DNA from: Acidimicrobiaceae bacterium
GTDB lineage: Bacteria > Actinomycetota > Acidimicrobiia > Acidimicrobiales > Poriferisodalaceae
Length of the DNA: 64,000 bases
Direction of reading: 5' to 3'
Assembly: GCA_002722565.1 (NCBI GenBank)
Contig: PBMG01000021.1
Span: forward strand, 1 to 64,000
The translations under genes and the position numbers were made by a program. How positions within the stretch are numbered: the stretch's first letter is position 1; the number at the start of each line of letters is the position of its first letter. The notes below the pieces were generated by a model. The model ran no database searches, was not told the DNA's origin, and saw nothing but the letters and a program-made list of their open reading frames with translations. Shown here one piece after another: positions 36,886 through 64,000 of the stretch.

Positions 36886-36920
36886 TCAAAAACAAAAGGC
36901 GGACACATTTGGTGCCCGCC
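36886..36920 (-). terminator. Intrinsic terminator in the infC leader (possible attenuator)
   Basis: On the minus strand GGCGGGCAC pairs with GTGTCCGCC (nine positions, one G-U) around a five-base loop, followed by TTTTGTTTTT. It lies 55-90 nt upstream of infC and faces it. No minus-strand gene ends just upstream (the plus-strand DUF1844 gene and hisG lie beyond), so it is better explained as a leader attenuator than as a gene-end terminator. An upstream CCTCC can pair with GAGG that overlaps the terminator's 5' arm, so an alternative fold exists. Confidence 0.8.
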
Positions 36921-37111
36921 TCACATATCGGAGGATCCAGTAACGTTAATTACTTCAACCCGACAGGGACCGAATCGCACCTTCCGGTGGAACGGTGGGG
37001 GCGGAACCCCGCTTGTATCTATTGTCAAGGCCGTAGGGTAACAGGGTAAAGAGCAATTCCGAACAAGTAGTGTCTCCAACTAGGACACTTTGGTTTATTG
37101 AAAGAGGTCAT
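36921..37111. other. infC leader and divergent promoter region
   Basis: A stretch of about 190 nt between the infC terminator hairpin and the DUF1844-like gene. It holds short hairpins readable on the minus strand (GGGG/CCCC at 36997-37010; AGTAA/TTACT around 36938-36953) and a TTGACA at 37023-37028 (minus) without a matching -10. It probably holds the promoters of both divergent units and an infC regulatory leader. Confidence 0.4.
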
Positions 37112-56024: not shown

Positions 56025-56732
56025 CTAAATTGCATCGGCTACCTCGGAGGCGATCCTGCTAGCTGCTTCTTCGGGTTCAGCGGAGGCAGTCACTGCTCTA
56101 CCGATAACCAGCAGGCCTGCCCCTTGTTCGATAGCGACTCTAGGCGTCGCCGGGCGTCCTTGATCATTAGCCGCCACCCCTTCAGGCCGAATGCCCGGGA
56201 CGACGCTAAGGAGCTCAGGAGCTACGGAAGAAACCTCGTGTAGGTCACTTGCGGCACAGACAACACCTCCGCAATCAGCGTTAACGGCGTACCCAAGCCT
56301 TTCCTGCAGCAACGACTCTGGAGCCTCTAAATCAGAGGTCAAGACAGTCACAGCAAGCACCATCGGCGGAGTCAATCCGGCAGCTGATGCTCCTTCGTTC
56401 AGGCCATCGACGGCAGCTGCCAACATGTCAACCCCACCTGACGAATGAACGGTGACATAAGAAACTCCGAGGCTCCCTAACACCTTGGCAGCTTTCCCGA
56501 CTGTTGTTGGAATGTCGTGCAGTTTGAGGTCAAGAAAAACCTCATAGCCCTGATCCAGAAATGTCCCTACAGCTTCTGGCCCCGAGGCAGAGAACAGTTC
56601 TAACCCAACTTTTGCGACCGAAAACCACGGCAGCATCTTGCGACCAAGACGGCCAGCTTCAACTAAGTCGTCAACATCGAGCGCTAAGGCCAGACGGGAA
56701 CGAGTGTCATTATCGACATCCCTAGGATTCAT
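56025..56732 (-). CDS. pyrF: Orotidine 5'-phosphate decarboxylase
   Basis: 235 residues, last step to UMP. The catalytic segment DLKLHDIPTTVGKA carries the D-K-D set. C-terminal phosphate site in VPGIRPEG and LVIGRAVTAS. Its ATG overlaps the pyrD end by 11 nt. Confidence 0.96.
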   Translation of the reverse strand: MNPRDVDNDTRSRLALALDVDDLVEAGRLGRKMLPWFSVAKVGLELFSASGPEAVGTFLDQGYEVFLDLKLHDIPTTVGKAAKVLGSLGVSYVTVHSSGGVDMLAAAVDGLNEGASAAGLTPPMVLAVTVLTSDLEAPESLLQERLGYAVNADCGGVVCAASDLHEVSSVAPELLSVVPGIRPEGVAANDQGRPATPRVAIEQGAGLLVIGRAVTASAEPEEAASRIASEVADAI

Positions 56733-57642
56733 GGGCCACTCCGGTAATAGAACTCAAGGAACTTACTCCATGTTTTCTGCACCACTTTTGTAGATCGTGC
56801 AGGATCCGCTGAGATGCTTTGGGATTCGCAAAGTGCGCCGACCCCACCTGAATAGCGGATGCTCCCGCTGCGAGGAACTCGACCGCATCTTCAGCCTTAG
56901 CTATTCCCCCTACACCAAGAATCGGCACTGGACCCAATGACTGGTACACGTCATATACAGCTCTAACAGCGATAGGGCGGATACTGGGCCCCGAAACGCC
57001 ACCTCCGCCATTACCAAGAACAGGTCGAAGGGTTCGTGGGTCTATCACCATCCCGAACAACGTGTTCGTAAGGGTCAAGGCTTCGGCCCCAGCCTCGATT
57101 GCTGCCTTGGCTATGGAAACAATGTCCGTAACGTTCGGGCTCAATTTGGCCCATGTGGGGAAACCAGAAATTAGTGAGGCGTTAATAGCAGCCTCACAGC
57201 TGTGGGCATCGTGAGCAAACATGTCGCCCCGACTTTCTAAATTGGGACAACTCACATTCACTTCGACTGCCGTGATTCCTTCAACTCCCGCCAAGCGACT
57301 GGCAGCCTCTCTGTACTCGTCAACACTTCGCCCCCAGATGCTGACCACCACTCGAGCCCCATGGCTTAATAAGGCAGGTAGGTCTTCTTTGATCCAACTA
57401 TCAATACCTGGGTTCTGTAGACCTACTGAGTTGATCATTCCAGATGAAGTCCCGTGAACTCTAGGTGAAGGGTTGCCTGCCCACGGTTGAGCCGACAGGG
57501 ACTTAACAACCACAGCCCCTAGCTCTCCTAAGTCGCAATATGCAGCGAGTTCCGTGCCATGACCTACTGTCCCAGAAGCGGTCATCACAGGGTTAGGAAA
57601 GGTTATCGAGCCAACCTTTACCGATAGCCCTTGGCCTGTCAT
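56722..57642 (-). CDS. pyrD: Dihydroorotate dehydrogenase, class 1B-like
   Basis: 306 residues, FMN enzyme of pyrimidine synthesis. [11 protein letters not shown], the [10 protein letters not shown] and SVGLQNPG segments and the catalytic cysteine in [10 protein letters not shown] match class 1B (Bacillus PyrD type). Class 1B normally pairs with the FAD/2Fe-2S protein PyrK, which is not seen in this window. ATG at 57642 overlaps the carB stop (ATGA); an upstream ATG inside carB is rejected. Confidence 0.93.
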
Positions 57643-60600
57643 TCGACCGAGCTTTCGAAGCCCAGAAATTCTTGTAATGGTCGCACGGTCAGCGGGTTGG
57701 ACATCCATTCTTCTAACCCAACAGCTGCCGCTCGTGCCGCTGCGACAGTCGTCAAACAGGGCACTTTATGGGCGGTTGAAGCAAAACGAATTCGATGACC
57801 GTCGCTTCGAGGGCCTCGGCCACGCGGTGTGTTAACCACGAGTTTGACCTGGCCTGCCCCAATTAGCTCAACTGCATCTACGCCAGCACTAATCTCGCGC
57901 CCTTCTTCGCTTAGCTTCGCTACCACCGTTTCCACTTGAACTCCGTTGCTACTCAAGAACTCGGCGGTTCCTGAAGTAGCAGCCAACGCAAACCCAAGAG
58001 CGACGAATCTCTTAGCAGCTTCAAGGCCCTGCTCCTTATCTCGATCTGCAAGCGAGAAAAAAATTGTTCCTCCGATCGGGAGTCCTTCACCCGCAGCAAT
58101 TTGGCTCTTAGCGAATGCCAACCCAAATGTCTTGTCGATGCCCATTACTTCACCGGTAGAGCGCATCTCGGGTCCAAGTACTGTGTCGACATCAGGGAAC
58201 CGTTGGAATGGCAAGACTGCTTCTTTTACTGCAACATGACCTTCCCTGATCGGCTCTGGCAAAGCACCCATTTCTCGCAATTCTTTTAGTGTTTCTCCGG
58301 CCATTACTCGCGCCGCGACCTTCGCCAACTGCACGCCCGTCGCCTTAGCGACGAAGGGAACGGTTCGAGATGCCCGGGGATTAGCTTCAATAACGAATAC
58401 TTGGCCCTGCTTAACCGCAAACTGAACATTCAAAAGACCCACAACCTCGAGCCGTTCTGCGAGTTGTTTCGCGTACTCGACTATGACTTCTTGGGTCTCT
58501 AGAGAGAGGTTGGGTGGCGGGATCGCACAGGCACTATCTCCTGAATGCACACCTGCTTCTTCTACATGTTCCAGAATTCCACCGAGAATAAATTCGCCCT
58601 CCTGGTCTCTGATGGAGTCCACATCAACTTCGATTGCATCTTCCAGGAACCTGTCGATGAGCACCGGGCGATCAGCCGACAGTCCACCTTCTCTGCCTAA
58701 GCCTTCGAAGGCTGCCAATTCTTTCATCGCTTCTTGAAGTTCTTGCAGGTCATACACAATTGTCATAGCCCTACCACCCAACACATAGCTCGGTCGGACC
58801 AAGGCAGGAAAACCAATTCGTTCACAGATTTGCGCAGCCTCCTCAAAGGTCACTGCAGTGCCGCCAGGTGGCTGCGGGATCTCCAGTTGTGCGCACAACG
58901 AGTTCCAGCGTTCACGGTCTTCGGCCAGATCAATGGAATCCGGAGCTGTCCCGCACACGAGTTCAGCTGGTAACTCCGAGGCCAACTTGAGCGGTGTTTG
59001 GCCTCCGAGGCTAACGATAACCCCAGCTGGATCTTCAGCATCAATAACGTTGAGAACATCTTCGAGCGTGAGCGGCTCGAAGTAAAGTCGATCTGACGTG
59101 TCGTAGTCGGTGGAGACAGTTTCGGGGTTGCAGTTGACCATGATGGTTTCGTAGCCGGCTTCCTCCAACGCGAAGCTGGCGTGGACACAGCAATAATCGA
59201 ATTCAATACCCTGACCTATTCGATTAGGCCCCGAGCCAAGAATCATCATCCGCGGTCGAACGCCTGGGCGAATCTCATCTTCGTCCTCGTAGGTGGAGTA
59301 GTGATACGGCGTTATTGCGTCGAACTCAGCAGCACAGGTGTCGACGGTCTTGAAGGTCGTAACAACGCCAGCGCTCAATCTGCCTGCTCGCACGTCTCGC
59401 TCTTCTTCCTTCAAAAGATAAGCAAGTTGAGCATCGGAAAATCCGAGTTGTTTAGCGCGTCGCCACTCCATACGAGTTAACGAAGACAGAGTTACCTTCT
59501 CCAGATGAAGCCGTTCTTCAACAATCATGAGCATCTGGTCTAAGAACCAGTTGTCTATATCGCATGCGAGGTGAATCTGATCGACAGGAACCTCTCGCCT
59601 CATCAGTTCTCCTATTTGGAACAGTCTTTCGGGCGTCGGAATAGCTATAGCAGTAAGCAACTCTGCATCATCTTGTTGCATATATTGGACTTCCCCCGGG
59701 TCAGCGTTAAGCCCCATCCGCCCTTGTTCAAGCGAGCGAATACCCTTTTGGAGACTCTCAGGAAAAGTCCTTCCTATAGACATCGCTTCGCCCACCGATT
59801 GCATCTGAGGGCCCAATACTCCTGATGCCCCGGGTAGCTTCTCAAATGCCCATCGCGGGATCTTGGTTACTACGTAATCGATCGTGGGCTCGAAACTCGC
59901 TGGCGTCTTTTGCGTAATGTCATTAGTAATCTCATCAAGGCGGTACCCGACTGCTAAACGTGCCGCGATCTTGGCAATGGGAAATCCTGTCGCCTTAGAA
60001 GCGAGAGCTGAGCTCCTACTCACGCGGGGGTTCATCTCAATAACAATTTGCTCACCTGTATCAGGGTGGACCGCAAATTGGACGTTTGACCCTCCTGTTT
60101 CGACTCCGACTCGTCGGATGCAGGCAAACGCAGCGTTTCGCATTTCTTGATACTCAACATCGGAGAGTGTTTGAGCTGGAGCAACAGTGATGGAATCGCC
60201 TGTATGTACCCCCATCGCATCAACATTCTCAATTGAGCAGATCACCACACAGTTATCAGCGTGATCCCTCATTATCTCTAGCTCGTATTCTTTCCAGCCT
60301 TTGATTGATTTCTCGATCAAGATCTCCGAGATTGGGCTCGCATCCAGACCCAATGCTGCGACTCGCTCGAACTCTTCGGCGGTATGAGCAAAGGCCGTGC
60401 CTTTGCCACCCAAAATGTAGGCGGGCCGAATAATGACTGGGAGCCCAATTTCTTCAGCGACGCTCAGAGCTTCATCCATTGTGTGAGCAATGCCAGATAG
60501 GGCACACTTCAACCCAATCTCTTCCATCGCTTGCCTGAAGAGGTCTCGGTCTTCCGCTGTGGCAATAGCATCGCCACTTGCGCCGATCATTTCCACGTCA

Positions 60601-60932
60601 TATTGATCTAATACGCCGGATTCAACGAGCTCAGTAGCAAGATTTAATGCTGTTTGCCCTCCGAGAGTCGGCAAAATGGCGTCTGGCCGCTCACGTTCAA
60701 TGATGGCAGTAAGGACATCCGCTTCAAGGGGTTCTATGTATGTGGCGTCCGCAAATTCCGGGTCCGTCATTATCGTTGCGGGGTTGGAGTTGGCGAGAAT
60801 TATTCGGTAACCCTCTTCTTTCAAAACTCGACATGCTTGTGTACCTGAGTAGTCGAATTCGCAGGCCTGACCGATGACGATCGGCCCAGATCCAATTATC
60901 AAAATACTTTCGATGTCATCTCGTCTCGGCAT
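57639..60932 (-). CDS. carB: Carbamoyl-phosphate synthase, large subunit
   Basis: 1097 residues. Two homologous ATP-grasp halves, each with [17 protein letters not shown]- or [16 protein letters not shown]-like entry loops, an oligomerisation region between them and a C-terminal MGS-like regulatory domain (about 950-1090). Makes carbamoyl phosphate from bicarbonate, ammonia and two ATP for both PyrB and ArgF. One-base overlap with carA. Confidence 0.97.
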
Positions 60933-62020
60933 TAGCTCATGCCCCCGTGAAACGAAGCCATCAAATCAGCAAATTCTTGGAACAGGTAACGGGAATCATG
61001 TGGACCGGGACTGGCCTCAGGGTGATATTGAACGCTAAACGCTGGTATGTCATTGCAGCGAAGACCCTCAAGTACTCCGTCGTTGAGGCAAACATGGGTT
61101 TCGGTTACGCCGGGGACAGAACCTGACTCAATAGCAAAGTTGTGGTTTTGGCTAGTAATTTCGATCCGGCCAGTGTCTAGATTCCGCACGGGTATGTTGC
61201 CCCCGTGATGGCCAAATTTCATCTTGTAGGACTTTCCTCCAAGAGCCAAAGAAAGAATCTGATGACCCAGACAAATTCCGAACACTGGCACCTTTCCCAG
61301 CAGGGCACTGAGCGCGGTGACAACTTGCCCTGCCATCATCGGGTCGCCGGGTCCATTTGACAGAAAGACACCATGGGGGTCCAACGCCAGGACTTCGTCG
61401 CTACTTGTTTGGGCTGGTACTACAAAAACAGTGGCTATCTCTGACAACTGATCCACTATCGATTTTTTTATGCCCAAATCGTAGGCAACAACCCTGAGCT
61501 CGCCCTGTCCCACTTCGTAGGTTCGTGGGGTCGTAACGGAACCAACCAGATCTACTCCTTCCGTACCGGGCTCTGACGAGGCAGCTTCAACGAGCAAATC
61601 GAGTGAGGCTGAACCAAACGCGGCGGGCATGGCTCCGTTTTCTCGGACATGTCGTGTCAATCGTCGAGTGTCTATGCCTGCAATACCCGGTATGCCTTCT
61701 GACCGGAGGTAACTCTCTAGGTCACCCTCGCTTCGCCAGTTGGATTGTCGCCTTGCTAAGTCGCGGACAACGACGCCTCTACAGAAGGGGCGTGTTGCTT
61801 CGACATCAGCGGTTGAGACGCCATAATTGCCTATATGTGGATAGGTGAAGTTGATTATTTGTCCCGCATATGAAGGATCTGTTATCACCTCTTGGTACCC
61901 GCTTAAGACAGTGTTGAAGACCACTTCACCTGACGTAATCTCAACTTCCTCACCGATCAGTTCTCCTTCGAACGTTGCGCCATCAGACAGCACTAACGCT
62001 CCTTCGCGAATTTGGGTCAC
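60932..62020 (-). CDS. carA: Carbamoyl-phosphate synthase, small subunit
   Basis: 362 residues. The C-terminal glutaminase has the nucleophile in [16 protein letters not shown] and the H-E pair in QYHPEASPG. The N-terminal domain starts [16 protein letters not shown]. Delivers ammonia to CarB. It lies 63 nt after pyrB; pyrC, common at that spot, is absent. Confidence 0.97.
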
Positions 62021-62083
62021 CTACTCTCCCTGTCATCCATGATCTGTTTCTGATTCACTTTCTTTTCCTTAACAACATCGGCC

Positions 62084-63037
62084 TCAATCAATCTCAACAC
62101 CCGAACCCAATAGCCTGAAAAGAACAGCCATCCTCACCGCTACTCCGTTGGTTACTTGTTGGTTAACCAACACATTCACTCGCTTGTCTAAGACTTCGCC
62201 AGCTATCTCAATTCCTCGATTCACGGGACCCGGGTGCACAATCACGACGTCATCTCTCATAGTGTTGGCTCTCGCTTCAGTTATTCCGTAGCGGTCGACG
62301 TAGTCATCAACCGAACTAATTACAGATTCACCCATACGCTCCGTCTGAATCCGCAGTAAGCCGACTACGTCCAAACTCGGGAGAACTGAATCCAAGTCAT
62401 CGGTAATTTCAACTGGCCAATTCTCGGTATCGGTGGGCTGAAGGTTATGCGGAGCCACCAGAGTTACTTTGGCTCCGAGACTGCGGTAAGCGATGAAATC
62501 GCTTCGGGCTACCCTGCTGTGTTTGATATCGCCGACAATGCCGACATGGATTCCTTCCAAGGAGGCCTCAGTGCCAGCAGATCCGTGAAAGTGCTGACAT
62601 AGGGTGTAAGCATCCAACAAACCTTGCGTCGGATGCGCGTTCAACCCGTCTCCCGCGTTGATTACTGAGATTGCTTCTCCTACTCCTTCAGCGATCTGGC
62701 CGGGAAGACCATCCGAACCATGTCGAATTACCAGAGCATCAACGCCCAACGCCCGGATTGTTTCCACCGTGTCTTGAAGTGATTCCCCTTTAGAAAGGGA
62801 AGAGGTGTGGGTTGGAAAATCAATAACATCAGCGGATAGCCGTTTTGCGGCAAGGTCAAAAGACATCCGCGTACGGGTGGAATCTTCAAAGAAAATCATC
62901 GCCACGGTCCGCCCGCGCAGTGCTGGCACCTTAGGAATCGGTCTTCCGCTAACTTCAACAAATCGATCCGTTAGGTGCAACAACTCCTGGATAGCGTCAC
63001 GATCCATATCAGCAAGGTTGATCAGATGGTTCGTCAT
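62084..63037 (-). CDS. pyrB: Aspartate carbamoyltransferase
   Basis: 317 residues, first committed pyrimidine step. Carbamoyl-phosphate motif FEDSTRTRMSFD, the lysine-bearing loop SSLSKGESLQDT, and HPGPVNRGIEI near the C-terminus. Overlaps the pyrR stop by 4 nt. Confidence 0.97.
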   Translation of the reverse strand: MTNHLINLADMDRDAIQELLHLTDRFVEVSGRPIPKVPALRGRTVAMIFFEDSTRTRMSFDLAAKRLSADVIDFPTHTSSLSKGESLQDTVETIRALGVDALVIRHGSDGLPGQIAEGVGEAISVINAGDGLNAHPTQGLLDAYTLCQHFHGSAGTEASLEGIHVGIVGDIKHSRVARSDFIAYRSLGAKVTLVAPHNLQPTDTENWPVEITDDLDSVLPSLDVVGLLRIQTERMGESVISSVDDYVDRYGITEARANTMRDDVVIVHPGPVNRGIEIAGEVLDKRVNVLVNQQVTNGVAVRMAVLFRLLGSGVEID

Positions 63038-63600
63038 TTACGCATCTCTCCCAACAACACCCCTTCAGGATTCACGTCTACGACCTCATCTCGGCGGGTG
63101 GGCAGGTTTTTGCCTACGAAATCGGGACGAATCGGCAGCTCTCGGTGACCTCGATCAATTACTACGGCCAGTTGGACAGCGCGCGGGCGACCGAAATCTG
63201 TGAGCGCATCTAAGGCAGCTCTAATCGTTCGACCGGTAAACAAAACGTCGTCCACTAAGACAACTATCTTGCCGCCGAGGTCAATTTGGATGTCAGTTTC
63301 CGCCTCAGGCATAACTGGTCTCAGGCCTATGTCATCGCGATATAAAGCAACATCTAGCGTTCCGGTCGGGACGTCCACTCCATCAATTTCAAAAAGTAAC
63401 CGAGACAGGAGGCGAGCTATCTCGACTCCACCTGTTTGGAGCGCAACCAACACAACGTCTTCGAGTCCCTGGTTGCGTTCAATAATTTCGTGACTGATTC
63501 TCGTAAGAGCTCGGTGAACCTGAGCCGCGTCCAAAACAGTAGTACGAGCAATAAAAACGCCCCCATACGGGGGCGTCATACGGCGCTCGCGGTCGGCCAC
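63034..63600 (-). CDS. pyrR: PyrR regulator / uracil phosphoribosyltransferase
   Basis: 188 residues. PRPP-binding loop VLVDDVLFTGRTIRAAL and the basic TRISHEIIERN helix fit PyrR, which binds pyr mRNA when UMP is high. GTG at 63600 has GGAGG 7 nt upstream, which decides the start. Codons 8-16 contain a perfect terminator hairpin, and a PyrR-binding hairpin sits just upstream, so the gene is probably its own first target. First gene of pyrR-pyrB-carA-carB-pyrD-pyrF. Confidence 0.95.
   Translation of the reverse strand: MADRERRMTPPYGGVFIARTTVLDAAQVHRALTRISHEIIERNQGLEDVVLVALQTGGVEIARLLSRLLFEIDGVDVPTGTLDVALYRDDIGLRPVMPEAETDIQIDLGGKIVVLVDDVLFTGRTIRAALDALTDFGRPRAVQLAVVIDRGHRELPIRPDFVGKNLPTRRDEVVDVNPEGVLLGEMRK
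63551..63578 (-). terminator. Intrinsic terminator inside the pyrR 5' coding region
   Basis: On the minus strand an 8-bp GC-rich stem (ACGCCCCC / GGGGGCGT; arms at 69-76 and 57-64 of the 63500s) with a 4-base loop is followed by TTTTTAT. It lies 24-50 nt inside the pyrR frame and codes for part of MTPPYGGVFIA. Likely an attenuator that forms when the start is not translated. Confidence 0.75.
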
Positions 63601-63611
63601 GATGTTTCCTC

Positions 63612-63650
63612 CTGTCCGTCTGAGCCTCACAGGACTCGCTTCACGGTCAG
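63612..63650 (-). promoter_or_regulatory. PyrR-binding RNA hairpin in the pyr leader
   Basis: The minus-strand RNA contains AGUCCUGUGAGGCU (63623-63636), an exact fit to the PyrR loop consensus ARUCCNGNGAGGYU. It is capped in a stem: CCGU/ACGG below a purine-rich internal bulge, extended by CUG/CAG with one A-A mismatch. The last stem base is the first G of the GGAGG Shine-Dalgarno, so PyrR binding should hinder translation of pyrR. Confidence 0.85.
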
Positions 63651-63656
63651 GGGTGC

Positions 63657-63684
63657 AGCCTAGTCCAAATGGAGTTCTTGTCAG
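63657..63684 (-). promoter_or_regulatory. Candidate promoter of the pyr operon
   Basis: Minus-strand CTGACA (63679-63684) and TAGGCT (63657-63662) with 16-nt spacing. The predicted start is about 63650, exactly where the PyrR hairpin begins, so the hairpin would be the very 5' end of the mRNA. Confidence 0.5.
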
Positions 63685-63707
63685 GGACCAATTAAGAGTT
63701 AACTGAA

Positions 63708-64000
63708 CTAACTGCCTATTTCGCGAGCCGCTGACCCGAGTATCCCATTTATGAATTTCCCGCTTTCTTCGGTAGCGCCAAACAGGTTGCCTAACTCAAC
63801 TGCCTCGTTAATCACAACAGCAACAGGCAGATCGCCTAAAAGCAATTCGTAGATACCGATACGAAGAATCCATAGGTCGAGCATTCCCAAACGATCTAAT
63901 GACCAGCCCTCGTGAAGGTACGCGTCAATTTCCGCGTCAATTCGTTCAACGTCGTCAGAGACTCCTGTGACCAGATCTTCAACGAGTTGTGCAGGCGTAA
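63708..64000 (-). CDS. nusB: Transcription antitermination protein NusB, C-terminal part (cut by window edge)
   Basis: The frame stays open to the right edge, so the start lies beyond 64000. About 97 residues are visible, with the family motifs LRIGIYELLLGDLP, VVINEAVELGNLFG and SGKFINGILGSAA. NusB binds boxA RNA with S10 in rRNA antitermination. nusB upstream of pyrR is common in Actinomycetota. Confidence 0.93.
   Translation of the reverse strand, partial: TPAQLVEDLVTGVSDDVERIDAEIDAYLHEGWSLDRLGMLDLWILRIGIYELLLGDLPVAVVINEAVELGNLFGATEESGKFINGILGSAAREIGS

Follow-up and report, generated by a model that had tools for sequence, protein, structure and literature searches.

A probable translation-coupled attenuator fused into the regulator gene pyrR of the Acidimicrobiia

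How might a cell control its pyrimidine operon when a terminator lies inside the coding sequence of the regulator itself? We met this question in a 64,000-nucleotide stretch of DNA from an Acidimicrobiaceae bacterium (contig PBMG01000021.1), which we call the window. An initial annotation had noted a PyrR hairpin that reaches the GGAGG ahead of pyrR and an intrinsic terminator in the gene's first codons, and had suggested that the two may work as one attenuator.

Several known systems frame the question. In Bacillus, the terminators under PyrR control are found in leaders that are not translated, where they alternate with an antiterminator. In mycobacteria, PyrR reportedly acts by translational repression, through a hairpin over the pyrR ribosome site, in work attributed to Fields and Switzer (2007). 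For the pyr genes of Thermus strain ZO5, van de Casteele and colleagues (J Bacteriol 179:3470) are said to have proposed in 1997 that PyrR works without an antiterminator and that a translating ribosome prevents the terminator. The signal at Escherichia coli pyrBI is UTP-dependent polymerase pausing. Coupling of transcription and translation across pyrL is necessary to prevent the terminator there (PMC5021804).

The pyrR locus

The window's PyrR scores 213.1 bits against the curated family model NCBIfam NF003549 (cut-off 138). It carries a 21-codon N-terminal extension, VADRERRMTPPYGGVFIARTT. The match to the best PyrR model begins at residue 19, known PyrR structures align only from residues 19–21, and residues 1–13 have a pLDDT below 50 in the predicted structure. 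The gene lies next to nusB and heads a putative operon in the order pyrR-pyrB-carA-carB-pyrD-pyrF, which spans down to 56025 on the minus strand (Table 1). pyrC is absent between pyrB and carA (62020–62084); the dihydroorotase gene that passes the cut-off for the family lies on a different contig (G000:C1:258772-259989).

Table 1. Features of the pyrR locus in the window, in order along the minus strand
Feature	Position	Strand	Remarks
nusB	3' end at 63708	minus	upstream neighbour of pyrR
-35-like hexamer CTGACA (predicted promoter)	63679–63684	minus	16-nt spacer to the -10-like hexamer; from sequence
-10-like hexamer TAGGCT (predicted promoter)	63657–63662	minus	predicted mRNA 5' end near 63650
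PyrR-binding hairpin (putative)	63608–63653	minus	-17.9 kcal/mol; 3' base overlaps the Shine-Dalgarno sequence
PyrR loop AGTCCTGTGAGGCT	63636–63623	minus	exact consensus match
Shine-Dalgarno AGGAGG	63608–63613	minus	7 nt before GTG
pyrR CDS	63034–63600	minus	GTG start 63600–63598
Terminator stem-loop GACGCCCCC-GTAT-GGGGGCGTT	63556–63577	minus	pyrR codons 8–15; -17.9 kcal/mol
U-tract T5	63553–63557	minus	codons 15–16, GTT TTT
pyrB	62084–63037	minus	ATGA overlap with pyrR stop; first gene the terminator would cut off
carA	60932–62020	minus	NCBIfam; part of putative operon
carB	57639–60932	minus	putative operon member; assigned by recognition from the ORF only
pyrD	56722–57708	minus	NCBIfam; putative operon member
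pyrF	56025–56732	minus	NCBIfam; putative operon member

Predicted promoter, PyrR hairpin and ribosome site

The loop fits the consensus AGUCCNGNGAGGCU, sits on a stem as in the Rfam family RF00515, and belongs to a hairpin (63653–63608) that runs into the AGGAGG at 63613–63608. The initial annotation's PyrR loop, with a stem ending on the GGAGG of pyrR, is thereby confirmed, and the overlap of hairpin and pyrR ribosome site is of the mycobacterial type. None of 200 shuffled sequences folds as well as the 161-nt leader (z -2.84). A looser loop finder, used after a stricter one had missed 12 of 212 loci, places a PyrR loop in all of the best 148 of 262 Acidimicrobiia loci, the match in L207 being false by eye. 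In that locus pyrR follows nusB with no PyrR hairpin recognisable by eye, and an in-frame terminator was not found there either.

The predicted mRNA 5' end, at about 63650, coincides with the base of the PyrR hairpin. Of 84 same-order loci, 79 have a TAnnnT that starts at -38 to -22 relative to the PyrR loop (usually -26 or -24), as do 54 of 63 other-order loci (usually -25 to -23); at control offsets (-58 to -42) it occurs in three loci of each set. This near-fixed distance places the 5' end at the PyrR hairpin, where the mRNA probably starts.

A terminator within codons 8–16

Codons 8–16 of pyrR read ATG ACG CCC CCG TAT GGG GGC GTT TTT. They form a stem of nine pairs, one of them G-U, and a T5 tract that shares its first two T with the stem. 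The GC hairpin and U-tract that the initial annotation had seen in these codons thus hold, and the RNA folding that it had called for gives the PyrR hairpin and the terminator -17.9 kcal/mol each. Over this 1.5 kb a simple terminator scan finds six sites, where shuffled sequence yields 1.2 on average. The pyrR terminator is one of 13 strong sites in the whole window and the only one of these within a same-strand ORF and no more than 100 nt from the ORF's start. Strong terminator-like sites also occur at 36896–36922 (minus strand; very compact, -18.7) and, a second time inside pyrR, at 63395–63432 (minus strand; -12.0).

The stem lies within codons 8–16, unlike a Bacillus-type terminator in an untranslated leader, and its presence sets the locus apart from a mycobacterial-type leader without a terminator. 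As in the Thermus type, an ORF runs from the PyrR hairpin across the terminator; here that ORF is pyrR itself. We considered whether pyrR might re-start downstream, leaving the terminator in an untranslated region. Inspection by eye shows neither an in-frame ATG or GTG nor a ribosome site from the U-tract to the conserved core, whose second codon is a TTG. A re-start is opposed also by codons 2–7, which vary mostly synonymously, as translated sequence does.

Selection on the stem in near relatives

We compared the window with 57 near relatives, ranked by identity to the whole query and found with an N-terminal seed, a set therefore biased toward a kept N-terminus. All eight stem pairs are kept in 58 of 58 genes. 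The changes that do occur preserve pairing: GGC becomes GGT, giving a G-U pair, in L007 and L011, and L013 and L015 share a paired double synonymous change, CCC/GGG to CCT/GGA. The Val codon of the U-tract is GTT in 42 of 42 distinct near relatives. The peptide TPPYGGVF is nearly invariant among close relatives. Upstream of it, in codons 2–7 (63597–63580), MA[DE]RERR is conserved and most variation is synonymous.

Changes were counted on a gene tree drawn from the core sequences of 54 of the 58 genes, namely the distinct ones that have 188 codons and contain no N, with L047 set aside. The third positions of the stem codons T9, P10, G13, G14 and V15 changed 0, 1, 1, 2 and 0 times, against 7–24 times (median 14) for 27 other fourfold sites in invariant A, G, P, T or V codons (Mann–Whitney p=0.00024). 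One of the 27, the third base of P11 in the terminator loop, changed 21 times. The comparison for covariation and synonymous bias that the initial annotation had proposed thus yields frozen stem wobbles and pairing-preserving double changes. On this comparative evidence, the stem-terminator in codons 8–16 is under selection at the RNA level.

Divergent relatives in the class

A query of the core only matched 262 of 296 genomes of the class Acidimicrobiia, and 5' regions were taken from the best 148 of the 262, with the window's own row and a partial match (G019) excluded. Among these best 148, a looser terminator finder, based on RNA folding and giving more chance positives than our strict detector, places a terminator inside the frame of a fused pyrR in 63 loci; a further 63 have a fused pyrR without a detected terminator, ten have a leader ORF with a terminator inside, and 12 are of other types. 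A few of the fused terminator-like hairpins are expected by chance. The in-frame terminators of the 63 loci are often unrelated in sequence to that of the window. The remaining 12 comprise four leader ORFs without a terminator, one ambiguous locus without one, three (L085, L116, L158) in which the first ribosome site heads a short ORF that ends before the stem and pyrR spans the stem, three without a clear ribosome site (among them L097, with a canonical in-frame stem), and L207, which lacks a PyrR loop. Within the best 148 of 262, the genera that have a fused gene with a terminator number 27 of 51 in the same order and 15 of 43 in the other orders; for families the figures are 16 of 23 and 10 of 22.

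The stem has been re-made in several ways. Synonymous double changes restore it in L084 and L098, and changes that alter the protein do so in L087 (Thr/Val to Ala/Ala), L105 (Pro/Gly to Arg/Arg) and L119 (Pro/Gly to Ser/Asp). L086 has a stem with a shifted loop, and L119, L126 and L156 have the same kind of stem in unrelated N-termini. In L084, L087 and L098 the stem is present without a qualifying U-tract. Three loci of a family with many small genomes (L145, L185, L193) have another in-frame terminator in place of the canonical stem, for example ACGCCAGG...CCTGGCGTTTTTT, encoding unrelated protein sequence.

The stem is also lost. Fifty-four divergent genes start exactly 21 codons before the core: all eight pairs are present in 25 of them, at least seven in 29, and fewer than seven in the other 25. 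RER at residues 4–6 is kept in 16 of those 25, and the extension must therefore be under some other constraint. The looser finder reports another terminator-like hairpin in eight of these 16 genes and no other terminator in L107, L110, L113, L114, L128, L131, L132 and L142. Five further divergent genes keep the stem and lack a qualifying U-tract. The losses mean that the element is dispensable; they leave the selection in near relatives unaffected. The initial annotation had said that relatives with the same protein start and a broken hairpin would speak against it: among distant relatives they do (25 of 54 with fewer than seven pairs), and among near relatives the stem is intact in 58 of 58.

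Some loci have features of their own. L031 has, by eye, a second short ORF, VAAQQDVGRNG* (1473–1508), between the PyrR hairpin and pyrR, and L116 has another there, VAAKLHG*; in both, the stop overlaps the pyrR start as ATGGCTGA, ahead of an intact in-frame terminator. L043 and L044 are records titled Bifidobacterium breve MAG that have an Acidimicrobiia-type pyrR locus with 70% identity to the window protein; they are probably mislabelled.

Chance controls

How much of this recurrence would chance supply? Between loop and core, the strict detector finds a terminator in 69 of 147 genomes; its hits number 95 among 5,880 dinucleotide shuffles and none among 147 core stretches of equal length. 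The looser finder is positive in 77 of 147 loci, in 109 of 1,470 shuffles (7.4%) and in one of 147 core stretches; at -12 kcal/mol or below, it is positive in 66 of 147 loci and 32 of 1,470 shuffles. In other classes its figures are 31 of 58 loci, 71 of 580 shuffles (12%) and four of 58 core stretches. Since shuffles are positive too, some of its calls are chance.

A synonymous-recoding test used the first version of the strict detector, which missed some stems extendable into the T-run; its count of 56 of 127 is therefore an undercount. At least 56 of 127 divergent fused genes reach a score of 20, against none of 127 core controls. When the protein of each of these 56 is recoded synonymously 200 times, the native gene outscores no fewer than 191 of the recodings, and for 28 genes none of the 200 attains the observed score.

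Pairing was also scored in the 54 divergent genes. Stem cells pair in 75.2% of cases, against a mean of 69.2 and a maximum of 72.7 in 500 shuffles and 40.7–65.3% for slid-partner controls, over which the stem is favoured by having been defined on the window. Double-change cells number 24, more than in shuffles (mean 13.0, maximum 21), and do not exceed the slid controls (13–24). Nor do these genes exceed the slid controls in pairs with double changes (5, against 6–8) or in extra pair types (14, against 15–22).

Separate leader ORFs

In L137, L176, L228, L146, L213, L223 and L225, an ORF headed by a separate ribosome site follows the PyrR hairpin, crosses the terminator and stops at or near a possible pyrR start. 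All 15 leader-type loci of the class have a possible pyrR start no more than 15 nt from the leader stop, and in eight of the 15 the two overlap directly as NTGA or TGATG. The corresponding figures for other classes are 28 of 38 and 21 of 38.

The set from other classes consists of 63 actinobacterial loci, the top 23 and 40 picked by hand from the list, and is not a random sample. The looser finder places a terminator inside a leader ORF in 22 of them; 14 have a leader ORF without one, two have a terminator after the leader stop, eight lack a clear start, and in five the loop was not found. The other 12 are fused, all without a detected terminator, so that a fused pyrR with a terminator inside was found in none of these 63 loci. 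Measured from the start codon, the first base after the stem falls at a median of +47 in fused genes (n=63, range 43–99). For leader forms the median is +42.5 within the class (n=10) and +45.5 in other classes (n=22).

A proposed mechanism

We think it likely that the regulator gene pyrR contains, fused into its reading frame, an autoregulatory attenuator of transcription that is coupled to translation. When UMP is high, PyrR–UMP would bind the hairpin at the 5' end of the mRNA and block ribosome entry; codons 8–16 would stay untranslated, the terminator would fold, and RNA polymerase would stop after roughly 98 nt, ahead of pyrR-pyrB-carAB-pyrD-pyrF. When UMP is low, a ribosome would enter and translate the extension, the stem would stay open and polymerase would read through. 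Because the terminator lies in the first pyrR codons, just after PyrR's own hairpin, transcription of the entire pyrimidine operon probably depends on whether pyrR is translated. If a ribosome on the extension does control the terminator, this N-terminal part of PyrR serves as a leader peptide that has become part of the regulator. Other lineages have a terminator of this kind in a separate leader ORF, which would be coupled to pyrR. The initial annotation's proposal of a joined PyrR–terminator attenuator thus draws support from frozen stem wobbles, compensatory changes and recurrence; the coupling step we infer.

A serious kinetic objection comes from E. coli, where a terminator placed 30 bp downstream of the AUG lost only about 10% of its efficiency when translated (PMC4824070). 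The proposed coupling would thus require polymerase to pause close to the U-tract or the first ribosome to be fast. The same paper notes that pausing sites can couple transcription and translation, as in pyrBI.

Alternative readings

Would translational repression be enough? PyrR might repress translation only, with the stem a pause or stability element, termination minor, and polarity or Rho doing the rest. We hold this to be unlikely, with several observations in its favour: the PyrR hairpin overlaps the ribosome site, 63 of the best 148 of 262 class loci and 12 of 12 fused loci of other classes do without a detected terminator, and the early-coding terminator in E. coli resists translation (PMC4824070). 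However, it leaves unexplained why stem and T-run are conserved, re-made by double changes and recurrent in unrelated sequence, and why leader ORFs span a terminator.

It is rather less probable that the terminator is constitutive, ending a fixed share of transcripts, or senses ribosome speed, for example at Pro-Pro, with no gating by PyrR. Codons 10–11 of the window are indeed Pro-Pro, and polyproline stalling raised intrinsic termination in a reporter (PMC5021804). Yet the terminators directly follow a PyrR hairpin at the ribosome site, and L086, L105, L119 and L145 have a terminator without Pro-Pro there.

An RNA switch of the Bacillus type, with an antiterminator competing with the PyrR hairpin, we regard as very improbable. 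RF00515 does align hairpin and terminator together, at 33.2 bits, a score that falls short of membership at the gathering cut-off of 54. (Across 59 genomes of the order, RF00515 gives one weak match and none over the cut-off, yet the loop precedes nearly every pyrR fetched.) Moreover, the PyrR hairpin has a probability below 0.5 in 25 of 70 loci when the transcript ends early. Against the switch, the stem sits in the coding frame, and our search for an antiterminator gave native 5' arms pairing upstream at 0.43 and swapped arms slightly better at 0.47, a weak control of low power in which one of four comparison leaders was clear. Those four leaders (L066, L067, L069, L075) have a PyrR loop and a terminator; the test revealed a clear antiterminator in L075 alone, and native arms came out ahead of swapped arms in two of the four. 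The native arm lies above the swap median in 28 of 70 loci, and the terminator is formed in the lowest-energy fold of the full leader in 67 of 70. As the mRNA apparently begins at the hairpin, there would be no antiterminator partner further upstream.

That protein constraint or chance accounts for everything, with TPPYGGVF a functional peptide and the palindrome incidental, is hardly credible: the peptide's near-invariance fits, but wobbles are frozen only in the stem with the loop codon free, other peptides share the stem, and synonymous recodings seldom attain the observed score.

Relation to known systems

Returning to a PyrR-gated terminator controlled by the ribosome, we find a likeness to each known system and a difference from it. 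The locus shares with the Bacillus type (RF00515) a PyrR loop consensus followed by an intrinsic terminator; it differs in that the terminator is in frame, an antiterminator was not detected and the Rfam score is below cut-off. A hairpin over the ribosome site is shared with mycobacterial PyrR, to which a terminator in the first codons is here added. E. coli pyrBI/pyrL resembles it in that leader translation prevents a pyr terminator, and differs in working without PyrR and with a leader separate from the regulator. Thermus ZO5 reportedly has its leader upstream of pyrR, whereas here the terminator is inside the pyrR frame and has comparative evidence of selection. Control of a pyr terminator by a ribosome is said to have been proposed already, for Thermus. 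The Thermus pyr sequence was not among the 15 plasmid records searched.

The initial annotation knew of no described case of a terminator inside the pyrR frame, and none was found in titles and abstract openings of the open literature.

What the element would mean

On balance we lean toward a broader reading, in which a leader peptide gated by PyrR became part of the pyrR gene in the Acidimicrobiia, so that the first codons of pyrR serve as protein, leader peptide and terminator at once, in-frame terminators have been rebuilt several times from unrelated sequences, and other actinobacteria keep a separate leader ORF. The element would join both known PyrR modes, attenuation and translational repression. 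It would belong to a natural series that runs from a separate leader peptide, through an in-frame terminator, to repression without a terminator. It offers a terminator selected inside a protein-coding frame, passed over by the Rfam model at its cut-off, and it opens to direct testing the question of how soon a ribosome can overcome such a terminator. If the proposal is true, translation of the regulator itself would be the antiterminator for its operon.
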